From Streptosporangiaceae bacterium (GTDB taxonomy: Bacteria > Actinomycetota > Actinomycetes > Streptosporangiales > Streptosporangiaceae): a stretch of 42,653 bases of DNA. The notes beneath the pieces were generated by a model. It made no database searches. It worked only from the letters and a program-made list of their open reading frames with translations, and was not told the origin of the DNA. Made by a program: the position numbers and the translations under genes. The stretch is from positions 1 through 42,653 of the forward strand of contig JAICUO010000005.1 of assembly GCA_025935815.1 (NCBI GenBank), in the 5' to 3' direction. Position 1 is the stretch's first letter. Each line of letters begins with the position of its first letter. Shown here piece by piece: positions 1,749 to 37,092 of the stretch.

Positions 1749-2687
1749 GTGAGCTACAGCCAGCCCGGGAGGGGCGCCCAGGCGGACGACGTGGCGGGTC
1801 CGTTCGCGGGCACAGCATCGGTTCGGGCAGGCCTCGCCGCCCACGGGTACCTCGCGGACGACAAGATCGCCGGCGTGGTGAGCCTGGCCGCCCGGCTCGG
1901 CAAGCCGCTGCTGGTCGAGGGGCCGGCCGGGACCGGGAAGACGCAGCTGGCCAAGTCGGTGGCGCAGCTGGCGGCCCGCCCGCTCATCCGGCTGCAGTGC
2001 TACGAGGGCATCGACGAGTCCAAGGCCTTGTACGAGTGGGACTACCGCAAGCAGCTGCTGTGGATCCAGGCGGCGCGCGGGGATGAGACGTTCTCGGCCG
2101 ACGCCGTCATCGAGGACGGGAAGGGGATATTCGACGAGCGGTTCCTGCTCACGCGCCCGATGCTGGAAGCGATCCGCAGCCCGGAGCCGGCGGTGCTGCT
2201 CGTGGACGAGGTCGACCGGGTCGACGCGGAGACCGAGGCGCTGTTCCTGGAAGTCCTCGCCGAGTACCAGGTGTCGGTGCCGGAGCTCGGCCGCCTGACC
2301 GCCCGCCACTTGCCGCTGGTATTCCTGACCTCGAACGGCACCCGGGACCTGTCCGAGGCCCTCAAGCGCCGCTGCCTGTTCCTCTACCTCGATTACCCGG
2401 ATCCGCAGCGCGAACGGGAGATCGTCGCCCAGGCGGTTCCCGGCCTGGAGCAGGCGCTCGTGGACCGGCTCGTCGCCCTGGTGGACACCCTGCGTCGCCT
2501 TAACCTGAAGAAGCCGCCGTCGGTATCGGAGACGATCGACCTGGCCAGGACGCTGCACCTGCTCGGCGCCACGGACCTGGATCTCACCGCTTCCTCGCTT
2601 ACGCTGAACGTGCTGCTCAAGTACCGGGACGACGTCCAGATCGCGGATGCCGCCCTCGCGCGACGCCCATGGCAACCACGACCATGA
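1749..2687 (+). CDS. MoxR-family AAA+ ATPase (CoxD-like)
   Basis: An AAA+ ATPase of the MoxR group: Walker A GPAGTGKT, Walker B AVLLVDEVDR, sensor-1 region FLTSNGT and a downstream Arg-rich segment (ALKRRC). MoxR ATPases work with VWA-domain partners as chaperones that remodel or load metal into target enzymes; CoxD in CO dehydrogenase maturation is the best-known example. Here the partner is the next gene, whose ATG lies inside this gene's 3' end (19-nt overlap). The open frame extends up to a TTG at 1641, but the extra N-terminus is Arg-rich and unlike the family. I chose GTG 1749; GTG 1791 is also possible. No molybdenum enzyme or other obvious client is in the window. Confidence 0.85.
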   Translation: MSYSQPGRGAQADDVAGPFAGTASVRAGLAAHGYLADDKIAGVVSLAARLGKPLLVEGPAGTGKTQLAKSVAQLAARPLIRLQCYEGIDESKALYEWDYRKQLLWIQAARGDETFSADAVIEDGKGIFDERFLLTRPMLEAIRSPEPAVLLVDEVDRVDAETEALFLEVLAEYQVSVPELGRLTARHLPLVFLTSNGTRDLSEALKRRCLFLYLDYPDPQREREIVAQAVPGLEQALVDRLVALVDTLRRLNLKKPPSVSETIDLARTLHLLGATDLDLTASSLTLNVLLKYRDDVQIADAALARRPWQPRP

Positions 2688-4081
2688 CCAGCAGCGGCAT
2701 CTCGCCGCTGGAGCGCATCCACCGCTTCATCGATGAGCTGCGCGCCCGAGGGGTTCCGGTCTCCATGGTCGAGCGGCTCGACGCGATGCGGGCCGCGAAG
2801 ATCGCCGAGCTCGATCAGGCCGACGGCCTGCGCACCGCGCTGCGCTGCACGCTGATCAAGTCGCCCGACCACCTCAGCGCCTTCGAGGAGGTGTACGGCC
2901 TCTACTTCAGCCCGGCGAGCCGCCGGCCGGCTACCCCGGCCGGGTACTCCGTCCAGCCGGACGCGGTCCGGCCTCCGCTGGACTTGGAGCGGGCGGTTAC
3001 CTCCGTGCTGCGCGACGGCTCAGCAGAGCTCGCCCGTCAGGTTGCCGAGCAGGCAGTCGGCGAGTTCGTGCAGTTCGAGGCGGGACGCCCAGTGGCCGGC
3101 GTGATGTATGAGCGATCGGCGCTAGCAGGCCTGCGGCTGGAGGAACTGGCAGCACGGCAGCTGGCGGAAGCCGCGGCGGGACTCGGCGGACCCGGCGCCC
3201 CCGGTCAGCGCCTGCGCCTGGAACTCCAGCGGACGGAGGTCACCGCCCGGGCCGAGTACCTGAGGGGCCAGGTACGCAAGGTCATCAGGGAACTGCTCGT
3301 CGCCGACCGCGGGGCGGACGCGGTCGCCAAGACGCTCCGCCAGCCGCTGCCCGCGGACCGCGACATCTCGACCGCAAGCCGGGAGCAGATGCGGGAGATC
3401 CACCGGGTCATGATCCCCATCGAGCGCAAGCTCGCGACCACCGTCATGCGCAGGCGCCGCCACCGCACCGGCCTCATCGACGTCCGGGCGACCCTGCGTG
3501 CCTCCATGGCCACCGGCGCCGTGCCCATGCGGATCGTGCACAGGAAACCCCGGCCAACCAAGCCCCAGCTGTACGTCCTGGCTGACATGTCAGGGTCGGT
3601 GGCCACGTTCGCGGCCTTCACCGTCACCCTCGTCTCCGCCATGTCGCAGCTGTTCTCCCGGCTGCGCTCCTTCGCCTTCATCACGGACGCGGCGGAGGTT
3701 ACCGACGTCTTCCGGCACGTCCGCGATCCCGAGCACGCCATGGCGACGATCCGCGACTTCGTCAATGCCAGCCAGCTCGGCGGCTACACCGACTATGGCC
3801 GCGCCTTGCGGCAGTTTCACGGCGCGGTCGGCGCTGAGCTGGAACGCCGCAGCACGGTCCTCATCTTCGGGGACGCGCGCGGCAACTACCTTCCGGCGGA
3901 GGAGGCGACGCTGGCCCGGATATCCCGCCGGGCGGGCTCGGTGTACTGGCTGAACCCTGAACCGCAGGCGCAGTGGAACACCGGAGACTCCACGATGCGC
4001 GCCTACGAGGGGTACTGCACCGCCGCCGTCACCTGCCGGAGCCTAAGCGACCTGCGCCGGTTCATCGAGCGGCTCGACTGA
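2669..4081 (+). CDS. VWA-domain protein (CoxE-like), MoxR partner
   Basis: A 470-residue protein with a long helical N-terminal region and a C-terminal von Willebrand A domain. The metal-ion-dependent adhesion site is intact: DMSGS, the Thr in GGYTDYG, and the Asp in FGDARGN. This is the layout of CoxE-type proteins that pair with MoxR/CoxD ATPases, and the 19-nt overlap with the ATPase gene supports co-translation and a joint complex. There is no signal peptide or membrane segment, so it should act in the cytoplasm. The CoxD/CoxE resemblance is family-level. With no cox structural genes here, the client is unknown. Confidence 0.85.
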   Translation: MATTTMTSSGISPLERIHRFIDELRARGVPVSMVERLDAMRAAKIAELDQADGLRTALRCTLIKSPDHLSAFEEVYGLYFSPASRRPATPAGYSVQPDAVRPPLDLERAVTSVLRDGSAELARQVAEQAVGEFVQFEAGRPVAGVMYERSALAGLRLEELAARQLAEAAAGLGGPGAPGQRLRLELQRTEVTARAEYLRGQVRKVIRELLVADRGADAVAKTLRQPLPADRDISTASREQMREIHRVMIPIERKLATTVMRRRRHRTGLIDVRATLRASMATGAVPMRIVHRKPRPTKPQLYVLADMSGSVATFAAFTVTLVSAMSQLFSRLRSFAFITDAAEVTDVFRHVRDPEHAMATIRDFVNASQLGGYTDYGRALRQFHGAVGAELERRSTVLIFGDARGNYLPAEEATLARISRRAGSVYWLNPEPQAQWNTGDSTMRAYEGYCTAAVTCRSLSDLRRFIERLD

Positions 4082-8207: not shown

Positions 8208-9182
8208 ATGAATAGCGATGTCGGAGCAAGCATTCCCGGGTATGGCCAATGGCTTTATATCGTGGCGGAAGACCATGCCGAGAGTGATCCCCGCCGGGAG
8301 GAGGAAAAGAGATTCCTCCGCTCAATAACCGGCAGCGCCAACTACTGGGAAGAGGACGAGCTCCCCGGCCTGGAAGCGGGCATTGCCGACAAAATGGAAG
8401 TTCGCGCCCTGCATAGCGCGGCCCTGCTCATCGCCTATTTCCAGGTCATGGCCGACGAGGCGAGCAAACTGCTCCAGGGTTGGCCCCCGCCAGCCTCGGC
8501 TCCGGTTCAGGCGCCGTCACGGGCGATCCTCCGCAAGGAACCCGTGGTTCAAGACCGGACAATAGCAGGGGAAGCGATGAAGCGGGCTAACCAGATGGAT
8601 GGGAACCAGGTGGCGTTCACCAGGTTCGTCCGCGACGACCTCGCGCAGGCCATGTGGTACTGGCGGTACCTCTCCCGTGTCTGGACGCAGACTGCGGACC
8701 CCGATGTGAACACGGTCGCGCAGGCGGCGTTCGATAATGTCGAGAGCGCCTTCAATCAGTTCTTCGACTCGCTCCGCAAGGCCACGGAGACGCTGGCCGG
8801 CAACAGCAGTGCCCGCGACGCCCGCGTTTCGCTGCTGAAGACCATCGTTGCCAAGGGCGGCCTGGATGGGGCGGATCCCGGAAACCCGCGAGCTGTAGCG
8901 GACCTCCTGCGCAAGAAGCGCTCTGATCTTATGGGTGCCACGGCGGCGAAGTCACGGCAGGCCGGCGCCTGGAAGATCGGCTATCTGCACGTCGCGGATA
9001 TCCTGAACGGCAATGCAGACATCAGGGCCAGCCTGCATATCGTCTCCAGGGTCAACTTCAACCAGCAATTCGAAGCCTGGCGAGCTCAAGGTGAAACGCT
9101 GGACGAAAGCCTAGCGAATGGACTGAGGACGGAGGCGTCCAAGAGGGCAGCGAAACTCTCGCGGAAGGTCGACTATACCTGA
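8208..9182 (+). CDS. Unrecognised helical protein of unusual composition
   Basis: A 324-residue soluble protein I do not recognise. It is mostly predicted helix, with many aromatic residues in amphipathic stretches (AMWYWRYLSRVW, then FNQFFDSLRK), no membrane segment, no signal peptide and no metal or nucleotide motif. A Pro-rich linker near residue 95 (PPPASAPVQAPS) separates an N-terminal acidic domain from the larger C-terminal one. The DNA is visibly less GC-biased at third positions than neighbouring genes, which suggests acquisition by transfer. The start may be ATG 8196 or 8208; both follow near-identical GGGATGAAT sequences. It is convergent with the hydrolase at 9253. TTGACC at 8105 is a possible -35 element. 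Confidence 0.75.
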   Translation: MNSDVGASIPGYGQWLYIVAEDHAESDPRREEEKRFLRSITGSANYWEEDELPGLEAGIADKMEVRALHSAALLIAYFQVMADEASKLLQGWPPPASAPVQAPSRAILRKEPVVQDRTIAGEAMKRANQMDGNQVAFTRFVRDDLAQAMWYWRYLSRVWTQTADPDVNTVAQAAFDNVESAFNQFFDSLRKATETLAGNSSARDARVSLLKTIVAKGGLDGADPGNPRAVADLLRKKRSDLMGATAAKSRQAGAWKIGYLHVADILNGNADIRASLHIVSRVNFNQQFEAWRAQGETLDESLANGLRTEASKRAAKLSRKVDYT

Positions 9183-11372: not shown

Positions 11373-12322
11373 GTGCCTCATCCGCTGCTTGATGCTGGGG
11401 TGGTGCGAGAAGTCGAGCAGGCGGCTTCGGCGCACCTGGGACGTCAGTGGCAGCACCTGGGCTTCGCTGACCTGAAGGACCGGGCCTCTCATCCGTGCGG
11501 CATCTTCTCGGGGGAGCCGTTCTCGGTGTTCGTGAAGCTCTATGCGGGCCCGAACGGGCTCGAGCAGGCCGCCGCGGAGGTGGCCGGGCTGCGGTTCATC
11601 CACCACGTGGCCGATGTCGCGACGCCGGTGCCCGTCTGCGACGGGGTGATCGCCACCAAGGCCGGGTCGATGCTGCTGTCGGAGGCGCTACCGGAACGGG
11701 GCTCTGGCCGGGGACTGCCCAGCGACTCCCGGACAGCCTGCGACTACGCGGACATCGGGCGGGCGCTGGCCCGGCTGCACCAGGTGCAGGGCGGCGTATC
11801 CGGAATGCCCGCGCTGGACGGCTTCTTCGGGCCGTTTCGGCTGGACAGCCGACCGGTGGTGACTGGTCGGTGGGCTGACTTCTACGCCGAGCGGCGGCTG
11901 CTCCCGCCCTGCGGCTAGCCCGGGATGCCGGTCAGGTAGCCCCGGAGCTGGCGGCCGCGGTCGAACGGGTCGCCGGGCGCCTGCCGCAGCTATGCGGCCC
12001 GGAGCCAATGCCGGCGCTGCTGCACGGCGACGCCCAGCAGAACAACTTCATCAACACCCCGGACGGGGCCTACCTGATCGACGCGTGCCCGTACTTCGGC
12101 CATCCGGAGATCGACCTCGCGCTGGCGGGCTTCTTCCACCCGGTGCCGGAGGACCTGTTCGCCGCCTACCGGGAGATCACCCCGATTGACGCCGGCTTCG
12201 CCGAGCGCCAGGAGCTATGGCGGATGCACGCCTACCTGGCGGTCGCCGCGGTCGCGGACGGCGCTCCTTCGGCCAGTCCGGTCCTGGACCGCCTGGCCGC
12301 CGCCACCCGCCAGTACTCCTGA
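11373..12322 (+). pseudogene. Frameshifted APH/fructosamine-kinase-like kinase
   Basis: Two open pieces together make one kinase of about 316 residues. The 5' piece starts at GTG 11373 and is open to a TAG at 11916-11918. The 3' piece continues one frame back and carries the catalytic loop LLHGDAQQNNF and the metal-binding LIDACPYFG...EIDLALAGF typical of fructosamine-3-kinase/aminoglycoside phosphotransferase proteins. Reading the second frame upstream gives LRLARDAG...PELAAAVERV, which joins smoothly onto AERRL in the first frame. A single missing base near 11895-11912 therefore explains the break. It could be a genuine pseudogene or a sequencing error in a C/G-rich run. If intact it would phosphorylate a small amine- or sugar-containing substrate. 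Confidence 0.8.
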
Positions 12323-13339: not shown

Positions 13340-14500
<1,161 letters not shown>

Positions 14501-26651: not shown

Positions 26652-27824
26652 TTACGGCGTGCTCGACACTACCCACATGGAGAAGTACTGGGAGCCGCCG
26701 CCGTAGGCGTGGCCGAGGGCGGTGCGGGCGCCGGGCACCTGGTGGGCGCCGGCCTTGCCCATGACCTGCAGGGCCGCCTCGGCGAAGCGGAGCAGGCCGG
26801 AGGCGCCGATCGGGTTCGACGACAGGACCCCGCCCGACGGGTTGACCGGGATCCGGCCGCCGATCTCGGTCTCGCCCGCCTCGGTCAGCCGCCACCCCTC
26901 ACCGGGCGCGGCGAAGCCGAGGTTCTCCAGCCACATCGGCTCATACCAGGAGAACGGCACGTAGATCTCGGCCACGTCCACCTCATCGATGGGGGAGGTG
27001 ATCCCGGCCTTGCGCCACAGGTCGGCGGCGGCGGCCAGGCCGGCGGCGGGGTTCACCGGGTCCTTGCCCGCGAACATGGTCGGCTCGGTGCGCATCGCGG
27101 TGGCCCGGATCCAGGCGACCGGCCGTCCGCCGGCCTGCGATGCCTGCGCGGCGTCGGAGTCACCGATGATCACCGCGCACGCGCCGTCGGAGGACGGGCA
27201 GGTCTCGTCGTAGCGAACCGGGTCCCACAGCAGGGGAGAGGCGAGCACCTTCTCCAGCGTGATGTCGGCCTGCTGCAGGTGGGCAAAGGGATTGCGGGCG
27301 CCGTTGCGCCGGTCCTTGACGGCGACCATCGCCCCGATGTGCGACGGCGCGCCGCTGCGCCGGATGTAGGCGCGGATGTGCGGCGCGAAGTAGCCGCCGG
27401 CGCCCGCCACGACGGCGGTGCTGAACGGGTGCGCGATCGACAGCGCCCACATGGCGTTGGACTCCGACTGCTTCTCGAACGCCACCGCCAGCACCCGGCG
27501 GTGCACTCCCGCCTGCACCAGGTTAGCGGTGACGATCCCGGTCGCGCCGCCGACCGAGCCGGCGGTGTGCACCCGCAGCAGCGGCTTGCCGACCGCGCCG
27601 AGCGCGTCCGCCAGGTAGAGCTCGGGCATCATCACGCCCTCGAACAGGTCCGGGGCCTTGCCCACGACGACGGCGTCGATGTCGCTCATCGTGAGCCCGG
27701 CGTCCGCCAGCGCGCGGTCGACCGCCTCCCGGCACAGCCCGGCGATCGACACGTCGGTGCGCTTGGAGCGGTGCCGGGTCTGCCCGACGCCGAGAACCGC
27801 AGCTGCCACGGGTTGCCGGGTCAT
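26652..27824 (-). CDS. ltp3: Lipid-transfer protein/thiolase-like aldolase Ltp3
   Basis: A 390-residue thiolase-fold protein of the SCP2-thiolase/lipid-transfer type. Landmarks are GVGQTRHRSKR at the start, VHTAGSVGG, the Ser/Asp-rich CPSSDGACAV, AEIYVPFSWYE, and the end NPSGGVLSSNPIGASG...GHAYGGGSQYF. It lacks the classical catalytic Cys of degradative thiolases at the VHTAGS position. In mycobacteria and Rhodococcus, Ltp3 and Ltp4 cleave the C-24-branched sterol side chain by retro-aldol chemistry with DUF35 partners. Order (DUF35, ltp4, ltp3) matches Rv3521-Rv3523. The ATG overlaps the ltp4 stop (ATGA) and has its own GGAGG, so it could be made despite the stop in ltp4. Confidence 0.85.
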   Translation of the reverse strand: MTRQPVAAAVLGVGQTRHRSKRTDVSIAGLCREAVDRALADAGLTMSDIDAVVVGKAPDLFEGVMMPELYLADALGAVGKPLLRVHTAGSVGGATGIVTANLVQAGVHRRVLAVAFEKQSESNAMWALSIAHPFSTAVVAGAGGYFAPHIRAYIRRSGAPSHIGAMVAVKDRRNGARNPFAHLQQADITLEKVLASPLLWDPVRYDETCPSSDGACAVIIGDSDAAQASQAGGRPVAWIRATAMRTEPTMFAGKDPVNPAAGLAAAADLWRKAGITSPIDEVDVAEIYVPFSWYEPMWLENLGFAAPGEGWRLTEAGETEIGGRIPVNPSGGVLSSNPIGASGLLRFAEAALQVMGKAGAHQVPGARTALGHAYGGGSQYFSMWVVSSTP

Positions 27825-28861
27825 TGGGCCTCCATCGTGCACACCAGGTTCTGCTGCAGGAGCGGGCCGCTGGTCGCGTGCCCGAGCGCGCGGTCCGCGC
27901 GGCCGGTCATGATCGCCTGGGCCGCGCAGCCGAGGCGGGCCAGGCCGGCCGCGAACATCGGGTTGGCGACGAGGGCGCCGCCGGACGGGTTGACGTCGGT
28001 GGCGGCGCCGATTCCGAGCGCCTCCCGCAGGATGATCTCCTGGTGGGTGAAGGGCGCGTGCAGTTCGGCGACGTCGGGCATGGGCCCGTCTGGCGCTCCC
28101 AGGGGAGCGAGCGTCACCAGGTCGCGCGCGCCGAGCGCGGCCGACTCGGCCCGGTGCCCGAACCAGGTGATCCAGGCGGGCCGCTCGCACAGCTCGCGGG
28201 CGCGTTCAGCGCTGGCCAAGATCACGACGGCGGCGCCGTCGCCGACCGGGGCGCAGTCGTGCGCCCGCAGCGGGGCGGCGACCTAGGGGCGGGCGAGCAG
28301 GTCCTCGATCGCGACCTCGCCGGCGACCTGCGCGCTCGGGTTGGCCACGGCGGCCGCGCGGCTGCGCGCCGCGACCTGGGCCATGTCCTTCTCGGTCCAG
28401 CGGCCCGCCTCGATGCCGAGCCGGGCCTGCAGCGCCGCGACCGACACCGAGTCCGGCCACAGCGGCGCCAGGAGGTAGGGGTCAAGCTGCAGCGCGAGGA
28501 CCCTGCGGAGCTCAGCCCCCGAGGCCTTGCCGAACCCGTAGGCGAGCGCGATGTCGGCCTCGCCGGTGAGGATCTTCACCCACGCCTCGTACAGCGCCCA
28601 GGCGCCGTCCATCTCCACGTGGGACTCCATGATCGGGGGGACGGCGCCGATCGCGTCGACCGCCTGCACGAAGGAGAACGCCCGCCCGGCCAGGTAGTCC
28701 GAGGATCCCGAGCACCAGAAGCCGATGTCGGCGCGGGTCAGGCCGGTCTGCGCGTACACCTCGCCGAAGATGGGCACCAGCATCTCCACGCCGCTGGTCG
28801 TCGAGTCGTCGCGGACCATGACCTGGGACTGGGCGAAGGCGACGATGGCTACTTCTGTCAA
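27821..28861 (-). pseudogene. ltp4: Ltp4-like thiolase/aldolase interrupted by one in-frame TAG
   Basis: A full-length thiolase-fold Ltp of 346 codons would run from TTG 28861 (overlapping the DUF35 stop, TTGA) to 27821. A TAG at 28283-28285 (codon 193) interrupts it in the same frame: ...EDLLARP-stop-VAAPLRAHDCAP. No other disruption is seen, and the region after the stop keeps coding character (DGAAVVILA, AELHAPFTHQE, NPSGGALVANP). Tyr (TAC) is the expected residue from relatives (PYVA), so one C-to-G change explains it. Ltp4 works with Ltp3 on C-24-branched side chains. The frame may be a recent pseudogene or a base-call error; re-initiation at GTG 28225 could give only a C-terminal fragment. 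Confidence 0.82.
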
Positions 28862-29937
28862 AGGTGCCTCGCATAGGACTCGTAGGGGGCGTCCGGCTCG
28901 CCGGAGGGGGTGAAGTGGCTGATGGTGTCGGCATGCCGCGCCCACTCGGCGCGCGGGCGCCAGGCGGCCCGCACCCGCATGCCCATGTGCACGTCGGCGG
29001 GGTCGCAGCCGAGGATCAGGTGCTGGAACGCGATGTCGGCGCCGTCGAGCAGCACCGCCGCCGCCACGTACGGCGGCGTCACCTGCTGCCCGGGGTAGCC
29101 CACGTTCACCACGGAGAACGTGGTGATGGTCCCGGTGTCCGGGAGCTCGACCTCGGTGTCGGTGGGCACCCCGTCGGCCGGGCAGGTCCCTCGCGACGGG
29201 ATGTACACCTGCCCGCACGCCGGGCACCGCTGGCCCAGCAGGCGCCCCTCGGCCAGGCCGCGCAGGTAGGCGCTCTCGGCGGGCGAGGCGGTGTGCAGGT
29301 AGCGCAGCCGCACCGGGGTGATGGTCATCGTGACGGGGGCAGTGCCGTCCGCGACAGCGTCGGGCGCAGTGTCCACGACGGCTGGGTCCACGGCGGCTGG
29401 GTCCACGGCGGCCGGCGCGGGCGCGTCGGGAGCGAAGCAGGTGATGTCGCGGATGCTGCCGACGCGGTCCGGTGCCCAGCGCGGCCACACGCGCATCCCG
29501 GTCCGCAGCCCGGCCGGCCCGGCCGGGCCGGGGTCGACCGCGTGCAGCATCGCGGTGTCGGCGCCGTCCAGCCGGATGAGCGCCCACCCGAACGGCCGGT
29601 TAAGGGGCTGGCCGTCCAGCGGCTCGGGCAGCCACGTCCAGCTGACCACGGTCCCGGCCGGGCCGACCTCGAAGAGTTCGCCCGGCGGGCTGGCCGTCAC
29701 CGGGTCGTACTCGAACGGGGGCGCGTGCACCCGGCCATCGGCGGCGCGCGCCCCGAGGATGCGCTGATCGCGCAGCCCGGTCATGAACTGGCCGAGCACC
29801 GGGCCGAGCGACCGCGTGTAGTCGAACGCGATCTCCATCGACGCGCGCAGTGCTGATGCGCGCAGTGCTGATGCGCGCAGTGCGGGCGCGGGCAGTGCGG
29901 GCGCGGGCAGGGAGGGTGCGGGTGGCGTGTCACTCAC
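28858..29937 (-). CDS. Double DUF35 (OB-fold) partner of Ltp enzymes, Rv3521-like
   Basis: A 359-residue protein with two DUF35 OB-fold units. The first (about residues 40-170) lacks cysteines; the second (about 215-345) has a zinc ribbon CPAC...TCPAD, with Asp in place of the fourth Cys. Its AGTVVSWTW and GTITTFSVVN strands and the TAMLHAVDPG and DIAFQHLILG segments are typical. DUF35 proteins form complexes with thiolase-like Ltp proteins and supply hydratase or scaffold function in steroid side-chain cleavage. N-terminal residues 7-32 and the inter-domain linker are built from 5-residue repeats. GTG 29937 is just downstream of a KstR-like operator with no room for a ribosome-binding site; a Met at residue 34 is a later possible start. 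Confidence 0.85.
   Translation of the reverse strand: MSDTPPAPSLPAPALPAPALRASALRASALRASMEIAFDYTRSLGPVLGQFMTGLRDQRILGARAADGRVHAPPFEYDPVTASPPGELFEVGPAGTVVSWTWLPEPLDGQPLNRPFGWALIRLDGADTAMLHAVDPGPAGPAGLRTGMRVWPRWAPDRVGSIRDITCFAPDAPAPAAVDPAAVDPAVVDTAPDAVADGTAPVTMTITPVRLRYLHTASPAESAYLRGLAEGRLLGQRCPACGQVYIPSRGTCPADGVPTDTEVELPDTGTITTFSVVNVGYPGQQVTPPYVAAAVLLDGADIAFQHLILGCDPADVHMGMRVRAAWRPRAEWARHADTISHFTPSGEPDAPYESYARHL
29367..29411 (-). repeat. 3 x 15-bp in-frame repeat in DUF35 linker
   Basis: Units at 29367-29381, 29382-29396 and 29397-29411; the last two are identical (ctgggtccacggcgg on the plus strand). They encode PAAVD-PAAVD-PAVVD-like repeats between the two OB domains. Confidence 0.9.
29843..29917 (-). 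repeat. 5 x 15-bp in-frame repeat at the DUF35 N-terminus
   Basis: Five 15-bp units from 29843 to 29917. The first two are identical (gcgcgcagtgctgat on the plus strand) and the others diverge progressively. They encode ALRAS, ALRAS, ALRAS, ALPAP and LPAP-type pentapeptides ahead of the first OB domain. Confidence 0.9.
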
Positions 29938-30009: not shown

Positions 30010-31557
30010 GTGGCGGACAACGGGTTGTGGAAGATCGCGGCGGCCGACCCCGACCGCGTCGCGGTGATCGAGCCGGACGGCAGCCCGGTCAGCTACGCCG
30101 AGCTGGCCGCTCGCGCGGACCGGATCGGCCGGGGCCTGCAGGCGCTCGGACTGCGCCCGGGCGACGCCGTCGCCGGGATGCTGCCCAACGGCGGCGACGC
30201 CCTCGCGCTGTTCTTCGCCGCGCTGGAGACGGGCCTGTACGTGGTCCCGGTGAACTGGCACCTGGCCGCGGCCGAGGTCGCCTACATCCTCGGCGACAGC
30301 GCCAGCAAGGCGTTCATCGCCCACGAGCGGTTCGCTGACGTCGCGATGGCCGCCGCCGACCAGGCCAGCATCCGTTCCGGCGCCAGGTTCGCGAGGGGCG
30401 AGGTCCCCGGCTTCGTTGCGCTGGATGATCTGGGGGCGGACAGCACGGGCCGGCCGGGGGAGCGGCAAACTGGCGCCCCGATGGTGTACACCTCGGGCAC
30501 CACGGGCCGCCCCAAGGGCGTCCGCCGGGCGCTCACCGGCGACGACCCCGACGTCGTCCCGCTGGCCGGCGTGGGGTTCTTCGGCCTGTTCGGGCTGGTG
30601 CCATTCGATGATCACGTGCACCTGTGCTGCTCGCCGCTTTACCACACGGCGGTGCTGAACTTCGCGACCATCTCCATCCAGCTCGGCCATCCCGCGGTCT
30701 TGATGGACCGCTTCGACGCCGAGACCATGCTGGCGCTGATCGAACGGCACCGGGTCACCCACACCCACATGGTGCCGACGCACTTCCGGCGGCTGCTCAC
30801 GCTGCCGGAGGAGACCCGCGCCAAGTATGACGTGAGCTCGATGCGCAACGCGATCCACGGCGCGGCCCCGTGCCCGCAGGAGGTCAAGCGGCGGATGCTG
30901 GAGTGGTGGGGGCCGGTGGTGACCGAGTACTACGCGGCCTCCGAGGGCGGCGGGACCCTGATCACCGGGGCCGAGTGGCTGGCGCACCCCGGATCGGTCG
31001 GCCGGCCGTGGTCGTACTCGCAGGTGCTGGTGCTCGACGAGAACGGCGAAGACGTGCCGACGGGGGAACCGGGGCTGGTCTACATGCGGATGGGCGCCTC
31101 GACCTTCGACTACTACCAGGACCAGGAGAAGACCCTGGCCTCGCGCGCCCGGGGCATGTTCACCGTCGGGGACATCGGCTACCTCGACGCCGACGGCTAC
31201 CTCTACCTCTGCGACCGCAAGTCAGACATGATCATCACCGGCGGCGTCAACGTCTACCCGGCGGAGATCGAATCCGAGCTGGCCTGCCACCCGGCGGTCG
31301 GCGACGTGGCGGTCTTCGGCATCCCGCACCCCGACTGGGGCGAGGAGATCAAGGCCGTGGTGCAGCCCGCCGAGGGGATCACCGCGGGCCCGGAGCTGAC
31401 GGTCGAGCTGCTGGGCTTCCTGGCCGGGCGGATCGCCCGGTTCAAGATGCCGGCGAGCATCGACTACGCCGAGGAGCTGCCTCGGGAGTCCAACGGCAAG
31501 CTGTACAAGCGCCGGCTGCGCGACCCCTACTGGGCCGGGCACGACAAGGCGATCTGA
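30010..31557 (+). CDS. AMP-forming acyl-CoA synthetase, KstR-controlled
   Basis: A 515-residue ANL-superfamily acyl-CoA synthetase that activates a carboxylic acid to its CoA ester with ATP. The P-loop is YTSGTTGRPKG, the A5 region is EYYAASEGGG, the A8 hinge YLYLCDRKSDMI leads into GGVNVYPAEIE, and the catalytic Lys is in ESNGKLYKR. A perfect KstR-like palindrome directly upstream makes it part of the sterol regulon, so its substrate is probably a steroid side-chain or ring-derived acid. It is not the FadD19 orthologue, which is at 33355. I chose GTG 30010; the TTG at 29974 would put the operator inside the gene. Which numbered FadD it matches I cannot tell. Confidence 0.87.
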   Translation: MADNGLWKIAAADPDRVAVIEPDGSPVSYAELAARADRIGRGLQALGLRPGDAVAGMLPNGGDALALFFAALETGLYVVPVNWHLAAAEVAYILGDSASKAFIAHERFADVAMAAADQASIRSGARFARGEVPGFVALDDLGADSTGRPGERQTGAPMVYTSGTTGRPKGVRRALTGDDPDVVPLAGVGFFGLFGLVPFDDHVHLCCSPLYHTAVLNFATISIQLGHPAVLMDRFDAETMLALIERHRVTHTHMVPTHFRRLLTLPEETRAKYDVSSMRNAIHGAAPCPQEVKRRMLEWWGPVVTEYYAASEGGGTLITGAEWLAHPGSVGRPWSYSQVLVLDENGEDVPTGEPGLVYMRMGASTFDYYQDQEKTLASRARGMFTVGDIGYLDADGYLYLCDRKSDMIITGGVNVYPAEIESELACHPAVGDVAVFGIPHPDWGEEIKAVVQPAEGITAGPELTVELLGFLAGRIARFKMPASIDYAEELPRESNGKLYKRRLRDPYWAGHDKAI

Positions 31558-32505: not shown

Positions 32506-33291
32506 CTAGGCGTCGCGGAAATGGGGCGGGCGCTTCTCGGTGAACGCGCGGGGGCCTTCCTTGGCGTCGTCGCTGGCGAACACCATGGCGCCGATCTTGG
32601 CCTCGATCGCGAACGCGTCGTTTTCGGCCATGCCCTCGGTCTCCCGCATCGCGCGCAGGATGCCGCGCACCGCGACCGGGCCGTTGGCGGCGATCACCCC
32701 GGCGATCTCCAGCGCCTTGGCCAGGGCCTGCCCGTCCGGCACGACGTGGCCGATCAGCCCCATCGCGGCGGCCTCGGCGGCGCGGATGTGCCGCCCGGTC
32801 AGCAGCAGGTCGGCGGCCAGCGTGTAAGGAATCTGCCGGGGCAGGCGGACCGCCGAGCCGCCGAGCGGGAACAGGCCCCAGCGGGCCTCGGAGACGCCGA
32901 ACCGCGCGCTCTCGCCGGCCACCCGGATGTCGCAGGCCTGCAGGATCTCGGTGCCGCCGGCCACGGCCGGCCCCTCCACGGCGGCGATCAGCGGCTTGGT
33001 CAGGCGGCGCCCCTTCAGCAGCGGCTCGATGACCGACAGGTCGAGGTCATCCATCTTGGCGCCAGGGTGGTCGCTGGTCATGGCCTTCAGGTCGGCGCCC
33101 GCGCAGAACGCGCCGCCCGCGCCGGTCAGCACGCACACCCGGATGCCGGGGTCGGCGTCGACCTCGTCCCAGGCCCGGCGCAGCAGCGCCAGCATCTGGC
33201 CGCTGAGCGCGTTGCGGGCCTGCGGGCGGTTCATCGTGACGATCAGGACGTGCCCGCGCCGCTCGGTGAGCAGGTGTGGCTCCTCGGACAT
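32506..33291 (-). CDS. echA19: Steroid enoyl-CoA hydratase EchA19
   Basis: A 261-residue crotonase-fold hydratase that adds water to the 2-enoyl-CoA formed from the sterol side chain. Visible are [12 protein letters not shown], the oxyanion segment [11 protein letters not shown], the Glu-bearing [11 protein letters not shown], and [14 protein letters not shown] with the second candidate catalytic Glu. In M. tuberculosis EchA19 (Rv3516) is divergent from FadD19 (Rv3515c), exactly as here. The minus-strand frame is open far upstream through fadD19, but that is an antisense artefact: ATG 33291 begins the family domain and the shared operator lies just beyond it. The gene is probably repressed by KstR. 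Confidence 0.88.
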
Positions 33292-33330
33292 TTCCCGCCC
33301 TTCGGTTACGGATCGGCTCTTGCCGAAGAC

Positions 33331-34939: not shown

Positions 34940-36061
34940 ATGACCGTACGGACGCCCGTGTGCGACCTGCTGGGCATCGAGCATCCCATCGTCGGGTTCA
35001 GCCCGTCCGAGCACGTCGCCGCCGCGATCAGCCGGGCCGGAGGCATGGGCGTGCTGGGCTGCGTGCGGTTCAACGACCCCGCCGAGCTGGACGCCGTCCT
35101 GGACTGGATGGACGCCCACACCGGCGGGCGGCCGTACGGCGTGGACGTCGTCATGCCGGCCCGGGTGCCGGCCGAGGGGACCCCGGCCGACCTGGCGGCG
35201 ATGATCCCGCAGGCGCACCGCGGCTTCGTTGCGGACACGCTGCGACGGCTCGGGGTGCCCCCGTTGCCCGAGGACGCCGCCGGGGCAGACGGGGTGGTCG
35301 GCTGGCTGCACTCGATCGCGCGCAAGCACGTCGAGGTCGCGCTGGCCCACCCGGCCCGGCTGATCGCTAACGCGCTCGGCCCGCCGCCGCCCGACGTCAT
35401 CGCCGCCGCGCACGAGCGCGGCATGGTGGTGGCCGCGCTCGCGGGCAAGGCGGAGCACGCCCGCGCCCAGGTCGGCACCGGCGTGGACATCGTGGTCGCC
35501 CAGGGGCACGAGGCCGGCGGGCACACCGGCGAGATCGGCACCATGGTGCTCATCCCGGAGGTCGTCGACGCGGTCGGCGACCAGGTGCCGGTGCTCGCCG
35601 CCGGCGGGATCGGCTGCGGCCGCCAGGTCGCCGCCGCGCTCGCGCTCGGCGCGGCCGGCGCCTGGATGGGCTCGGCATGGCTGCTGACCAGCGAGTACGC
35701 GCAGCTTTCATCGTCGCCAGGGGTGCAGCAAGCCTTGCTGGCGGCCACCTCGTCAGACACCGTGCGGTCGCGGATCTACAGCGGCAAGCCCGCCCGGCTG
35801 CTGCGCAACCGGTGGACCGCCGCGTGGGAACAGCCAGGCGCCCCGGCTCCGTTGCCGATGCCATTGCAGAACATCCTGGTCGCCCAGGCGCACCAGCGGC
35901 TCATGGCCTCGGGGCAGCCGGACGTGGTGCCGATGCCGGCCGGGCAGGTCGTCGGCCGGATCACCGAGATCCGCGACGTCGCCGACGTGCTGGCCGACCT
36001 GGTCCGCGAGACCGGCGAGGCCCTGGACCGGCTGGGCCGGCTGCGCGGGGCTTCAGGGTGA
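34940..36061 (+). CDS. Nitronate monooxygenase-family FMN oxidoreductase
   Basis: A 373-residue TIM-barrel flavoprotein of the nitronate monooxygenase/2-nitropropane dioxygenase family. LGIEHPIV opens the barrel, [16 protein letters not shown] holds the conserved His region, and [22 protein letters not shown] is the phosphate-binding segment for FMN. Members near steroid genes include IpdC (Rv3553), but the N-terminus here differs from what I recall for IpdC, so I do not use that name. It could act as an FMN-dependent enoyl-reductase-like enzyme on a steroid CoA ester. ATG 34940 starts 4 nt after the fadD19 stop; the stop overlaps the next gene (GTGA). Confidence 0.85.
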
Positions 36062-37092
36062 AGACCGCGGTCACGGCCGGCTACTGGGGCGCCGGGCCCC
36101 CGCCCGGCCAGGGCGACCTGTTCGCGGCCGCCGAGCGGCTCGGCATCGACCAGGTGTGGACGGCGGAGGCGTGGGGCAGCGACGCGTGGACACCGCTGGC
36201 CTGGCACGGGTCACGGACAAAGCGGGTCGCGCTCGGGACCGCGGTCTCGCAGCTGTCGGCCCGCCCGCCGACGACGCTGGCGATGACGGCGATGACGATG
36301 GACCACCTCACCGGCGGGCGGGTCCTGCTCGGCATCGGCGCGAGCAACCCGCAGGTGGTGGAGGGCTGGTACGGCCAGCCGTACCCGCGCCCGCTGGAGC
36401 GCACGCGGGAGTACGTAGACATCCTGCGGGCCGTCATCGCCCGCGGCGGGCCGGTCACCTACGACGGCAGGCACTACCAGCTTCCGCTGCCGGGCGGGAC
36501 CGGCCTGGGCAAGCCGCTGCGCTCGATCCTGCACCCCTACCGCGCGCGGATCCCCATCTACCTCGGCGCGGAAGGGCCGAAGAACGTGGCGCTGGCGGCG
36601 GAGATCGCCGACGGGTGGCTGCCGATGTTCTTCTCGCCGACGATGAACGACTTCTACGCCGCCGCGCTGGCGGCCGGCTTCGCGCGGCCCGGCGCCCAGG
36701 CCACGCCGGAGACTTTCGACGTGGTCGGGGGACCGCTGGGCATCGTCCCCGACGACGACATCGAGCGGGCCGCGGACCGGTTGCGGCCCTCGCTGGCCCT
36801 CTACATCGGCGGCATGGGCGCCCGCGACGTCAACTTCCACAACGAGGTCTTCGCGCGCATGGGCTACGAGGCGGAGGCGAAGGTCATCCAGGACGCCTAC
36901 CTGGCCGGTGACAAGAAGGCCGCGATCGCGTCGGTGCCGACCCGCCTGGTCGAGGACGTCGCGCTCATCGGCCCGTGGGCGAAGATCGCCGGGGAGCTCC
37001 CGCGGTGGACGCGGACCGTGCTGACGACGCTGCTGATCAGCTGCGACCCGCGCCTGCTGGAGAAGGTGACGGACCTGGTCCGGTCCGGCTAG
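36058..37092 (+). CDS. F420-type LLM-class oxidoreductase, Rv3520c-like
   Basis: A 344-residue luciferase-like monooxygenase-fold oxidoreductase. The WGAGPPPG start, VWTAEAWGSDAW, LLGIGASNPQVVEGWYGQPYPRP, YLGAEGPKNVALAAEIADGW and ALYIGGMGARDVNFH segments match the Rv3520c group, predicted to use coenzyme F420. In M. tuberculosis Rv3520c adjoins Rv3521-Rv3523 and lies in the KstR regulon. Here it is the last gene of the fadD19 operon, overlapping the upstream stop (GTGA at 36058-36061), and it ends in the CTAG shared with the convergent lacI-type gene. Its step in sterol catabolism is not known. Confidence 0.88.
   Translation: MKTAVTAGYWGAGPPPGQGDLFAAAERLGIDQVWTAEAWGSDAWTPLAWHGSRTKRVALGTAVSQLSARPPTTLAMTAMTMDHLTGGRVLLGIGASNPQVVEGWYGQPYPRPLERTREYVDILRAVIARGGPVTYDGRHYQLPLPGGTGLGKPLRSILHPYRARIPIYLGAEGPKNVALAAEIADGWLPMFFSPTMNDFYAAALAAGFARPGAQATPETFDVVGGPLGIVPDDDIERAADRLRPSLALYIGGMGARDVNFHNEVFARMGYEAEAKVIQDAYLAGDKKAAIASVPTRLVEDVALIGPWAKIAGELPRWTRTVLTTLLISCDPRLLEKVTDLVRSG

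Follow-up and report, generated by a model that had tools for sequence, protein, structure and literature searches.

In Rhodococcus rhodochrous, ltp3 and ltp4 are reported to be required for sterol side chains that are branched at C24 (Wilbrink 2012, cited by PMC8708139). In Mycolicibacterium neoaurum WIII, 4-HBC is still formed from phytosterols after deletion of either ltp3 or ltp4 (PMC10398937). We analyzed a stretch of 42,653 nucleotides (hereafter, the window) that carries the equivalent gene pair and in which ltp4 contains an in-frame stop codon. The window is contig C234 of a draft genome from the genus Trebonia (G000). This assembly comprises 8.0 Mb in 1009 contigs and is 83% complete, with 3.5% contamination.

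A stop codon within ltp4

The features of the gene and its surroundings are as follows (coordinates are those of the window).

27821–28861, minus strand: ltp4 (PRK07937, lipid-transfer/thiolase-like), interrupted; TTG start at 28861–28859; 544 bits to NF005924
28283–28285, minus strand: in-frame TAG, codon 193; a sense codon in aligned relatives, with Tyr in 53 of 89
28286–28861, minus strand: N-terminal fragment of ltp4, 192 residues; 312 bits to PRK07937 positions 2–190
27821–28225, minus strand: downstream part of ltp4 from GTG codon 213, 134 residues; 180 bits to PRK07937 positions 212–352
28274–28276, minus strand: ltp4 codon 196, Ala where relatives mostly have Asp; the differing base is 28275
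26652–27824, minus strand: ltp3 (PRK08313), intact; 714 bits to NF006180 (cut-off 514)
28858–29937 (putative start), minus strand: DUF35/ChsH2-like partner (zf-ChsH2 and OB_ChsH2_C; Pfam PF01796 and PF12172)
30013–31557, plus strand: divergent neighbor, acyl-CoA synthetase (FadD type); matches NCBIfam acyl-CoA synthetase families below the named cut-offs
32506–33300, minus strand: EchA19-like enoyl-CoA hydratase of steroid side-chain degradation; 412.6 bits to NF051848 (cut-off 400)
36067–37092, within ORF 35677–37092, plus strand: LLM F420-dependent oxidoreductase, Rv3520c family; 440.7 bits to TIGR03559 (cut-off 335)
13340–14479, minus strand: steroid 3-ketoacyl-CoA thiolase; 640 bits to NF005889 (cut-off 515)

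The plus strand reads CTA at 28283–28285, which is TAG on the minus strand (28285–28283). This TAG is codon 193 of a 346-codon frame (28861 to 27824) that is otherwise open and is followed by the gene's natural terminator, TGA, at 27823–27821. An earlier note on this DNA had reported a single in-frame TAG at this codon, which we could read directly on the minus strand, and had described both sides of the stop as family-like and in the same frame. This description is accurate: codons 1–192 alone match the NCBIfam family PRK07937 (5e-93), and so, separately, do the residues from GTG 213 onward (6e-53). If the TAG is read as Tyr, then the gene matches the family at full length with 544 bits (the cut-off for NF005924 is 419), versus 543 bits for the intact copy in the nearest relative that we compared (G116, a metagenome-assembled Streptosporangiaceae genome from a sister species). 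Judging by these matches, the interrupted ltp4 is a member of the Ltp4 family by descent, although it does not form one uninterrupted frame. The start codon is TTG in G000 (28859–28861) versus ATG in both G116 and Trebonia kvetii (G120, which belongs to the same genus), and the first 15 codons hold several further changes in G000.

The DUF35 gene overlaps ltp4 by 4 nucleotides (TTGA, 28861–28858), ltp4 overlaps ltp3 by 4 nucleotides (ATGA, 27824–27821), and the ATG of ltp3 is preceded by GGAGG at a spacing of 4 nucleotides. The 4-nucleotide overlaps and the GGAGG of ltp3 had been proposed from the letters alone, as had the gene names and a DUF35-ltp4-ltp3 operon in a sterol neighborhood, and the family matches and the cluster genes support the latter. 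The three genes lie near echA19, the Rv3520c-like oxidoreductase, and the steroid thiolase, as is characteristic of a sterol side-chain cluster.

Two other parts of the window also differ from G116. A one-base frameshift near 11903 breaks the fructosamine-kinase gene (11373–12322) into two ORFs; in G116 this gene is a single open frame of 316 codons. Also, about 1 kb of the window (2193–3205) is missing at the corresponding place in G116, within a stretch that is matched by one 456-codon ORF of G116. The downstream ORF (2669–4081) has a VWA/CoxE-like domain.

Codon 193 in relatives

In an alignment of 89 ltp4 relatives (a few of which occur twice, via two collections), codon 193 encodes Tyr in 53 (44 TAC and 9 TAT). 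The other aligned relatives have F, M, L, V, I, or R, with one gap. Comparing this codon in close relatives was a check that the earlier note had suggested, and all 89 have a sense codon or a gap; none has a stop. The note had also expected Tyr, encoded by TAC, at this position. Tyr is indeed the commonest residue, but TAC is uncertain: ltp4 of G116, whose frame is open and whose protein is 96% identical to that of G000, has TAT, so TAC need not be the ancestral codon.

Of the 111 ltp4 matches in the loci that we fetched, none is interrupted except the copies of the G000 locus, and hence this is no chance stop in a spurious frame. The stop is private to G000 and the orthologue is intact in close relatives, as would be expected of a nonsense pseudogene.

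Ltp3 and Ltp4 across Trebonia

We compared the species by one genome each. In G116, ltp4 is intact, but codon 145 of ltp3 is TAG (locus L064, around position 8220; contig C11 of G116, minus strand). Of 85 relatives, 76 have Tyr at this codon, and the stop is unique among 107 ltp3 matches. Six of the 12 amino-acid changes in ltp3 of G116 fall within 30 codons around the stop (simulated p ~0.005), and this cluster looks like a patch of poor consensus.

When we paired about 23,000 residues between G000 and G116, only two interior nonsense codons were convincing, and both are in the ltp3-ltp4 pair. The other apparent breaks that we examined lay in antisense frames, at ORF ends, in intergenic stretches, or in ORFs whose 5' extension ran past the true start. 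A third Trebonia genome (G053, 93% complete) encodes Ltp2 (691 bits) and has no Ltp3 or Ltp4 above the cut-off. A TAG that appeared to lie inside a thiolase gene of G053 is that gene's normal terminator.

Two of these observations are new: the sister species has a stop in ltp3, the partner gene, and neither Ltp3 nor Ltp4 was detected in a third genome. Because of them, the Ltp3-Ltp4 step seems to be dispensable in Trebonia. A broader scenario is that the two sister species independently inactivated ltp4 and ltp3 and that the third lost both, so that the lineage is shedding the cleavage of C24-branched side chains while keeping the Ltp2 pathway. We put this forward tentatively and consider it rather doubtful.

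A recent null allele or a consensus error

The reading of the TAG that we favor, with about even confidence, is that it is a very recent nonsense (null) allele of ltp4. In this case, a Tyr codon became TAG and translation would stop after residue 192. In a structural prediction (mean pLDDT of 87.6), the read-through protein forms one compact thiolase-like fold; its best solved matches are thiolases, and the Sal-Shy(DUF35) aldolase is among the leading hits. The stop falls before a predicted strand (residues 206–217), so the truncated fragment is predicted to lack this strand and the entire C-terminal half of the fold, and therefore no working Ltp4 would be made. The aldolase step carried out by Ltp3-Ltp4(-DUF35) on C24-branched sterol side chains would probably be lost, and Ltp2 and the other side-chain genes that are seen in the window would stay. 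We infer, rather than observe directly, the reality of the base, the loss of the protein, and the metabolic outcome.

The loss of Ltp4, which the earlier note had raised, is plausible because Ltp2 is intact in G000 and because we found no second PRK07937 copy above the cut-off in the genome (in an assembly that is 83% complete). The rival explanation is that the TAG is an error in the consensus or assembly of a fragmented draft and that the organism has an intact ltp4; we consider this a substantial possibility, at somewhat less than even confidence. The number of contigs and the incompleteness of the assembly fit with an error, as does the one-base frameshift in the fructosamine-kinase gene of the same window. 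On the other hand, the gene is clean apart from the stop and matches its family, and no other locus among about 110 ltp4 matches shares this stop.

The ratio of amino-acid to silent changes (N/S) gives no clear sign of decay, which counts against a null allele. Between G000 and G116, N/S is 0.52 for ltp4 and 0.46 for ltp3, as compared to 0.51 for 26 clean paired genes (a background that includes ltp4 and ltp3). Pairs of ltp4 from isolates of similar divergence have lower values (0.13–0.34), but since the whole G000/G116 pair is raised, the high N/S is not specific to ltp4. Given that N/S is at the background level and that the family score is undamaged (it is as good as that of the intact sister copy), the stop either arose very recently or does not exist in the organism. 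Weakly in favor of a null allele, when we polarized the changes with T. kvetii, the broken gene of each lineage was richer in amino-acid changes: the ratio of amino-acid to silent changes was 17:18 for the broken gene versus 8:26 for the intact gene (Fisher p = 0.045, for a test that was chosen post hoc).

The changes near the stops could also reflect errors. In G000, a second lineage-specific change (28275) lies 8 bp from the ltp4 stop, and both are transversions. However, the presence of a further amino-acid change at most 3 codons from the ltp4 stop is not significant (p = 0.15), and we rejected an excess of transversions as a signature of error, as transversions are common throughout the G000/G116 pair. 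In G116, the ltp3 stop sits within the cluster of changes described above, which weakens the case for a null allele. Under a uniform substitution process, about 2.5% of changes create stops, and 69% of those are TAG; we therefore estimate that a combined error rate of about 0.1–0.2% for both drafts would suffice to account for the stops. The error rate cannot be high, because some G000/G116 gene pairs (98.8–99.3% protein identity) have only 4 amino-acid changes beside 20–39 silent differences. It also counts against errors that both of the convincing nonsense codons fall within the ltp3-ltp4 pair. Overall, the background level of constraint and the cluster in ltp3 of G116 reduce the choice to a very recent null allele or a consensus error.

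If the null allele is real, then this soil lineage may use cholesterol-type side chains and not the C24-branched ones of plant sterols, and it would provide a simple natural test of the role of the Ltp3-Ltp4 pair. If the TAG is an error, then it warns against concluding from one base of a fragmented draft that a gene has been lost.

Can the stop be passed?

Alternatively, Ltp4 might still be made, either in two pieces by re-initiation at the GTG at 28225 or at full length by readthrough of the TAG. Family-like sequence is kept on both sides of the stop and the downstream part has not decayed, but background constraint is expected equally of a recent mutation or an error. The GTG (codon 213) lies inside the predicted strand 206–217 of a single compact fold, and the sequence upstream of it, TCGGCGACGGCGCCGCCGTC, contains no ribosome-binding site; two working pieces are thus unlikely, and the suggestion of re-initiation in the earlier note is not supported. 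Furthermore, no relative has a split gene, no structured RNA or known RNA family was found at the stop, and RNA folding around it is ordinary (z = -0.43). We consider it improbable that Ltp4 is made in either of these ways.

The two stops, in ltp4 of G000 and ltp3 of G116, both replace Tyr codons (two random stops would do so with a chance of about 1%), as would be expected if TAG were recoded as Tyr, but we rejected recoding as very unlikely indeed because RF1 is intact in G000 (491 bits), none of the tRNAs that ARAGORN identified at 61 places in the genome (83% complete) has a CUA anticodon that would read UAG (the one tRNA-Tyr found has GUA), TAG terminates 8 of the 30 genes in the window, and the 26 sampled G000 genes, with 259 Tyr codons, showed no further interior TAG.

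While surveying these components of translation in G000, we noticed two other loci. Positions 70–2906 of locus L191 (contig C833) hold 22 tRNA genes of many isotypes, on one strand and within 2.9 kb, which resembles mobile tRNA arrays. Locus L259 (contig C217, 3544–4104) is a release-factor-like gene with an in-frame TGA that scores far below the RF1 cut-off; it is possibly an RF2-type frameshift or a pseudogene.

Comparison with known systems

With the null allele as the favored reading, the locus can be set beside three kinds of known cases. Like the actinobacterial ltp4/Rv3522-type system (PRK07937, with PRK08313 for ltp3, and DUF35), it has full-length family members in the order DUF35-ltp4-ltp3, with echA19 and an Rv3520c-like gene as neighbors. 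It differs in the in-frame TAG at codon 193 and in starting with TTG instead of ATG. Compared to Ltp3/Ltp4 of R. rhodochrous, the gene pair is equivalent by family and by order, but its function in G000 is putative and one partner is interrupted. Like ordinary nonsense pseudogenes or strain-level null alleles, ltp4 of G000 has a lone stop and little decay, and its relatives are intact; what sets it apart from them is that the partner gene of the sister species also has a stop. Rather than a new kind of gene, the interrupted ltp4 most likely represents a copy that broke recently, or else a sequencing error. We regard it as an event of an ordinary type, or as an artifact, and its one notable side is the stop in the sister's partner gene.
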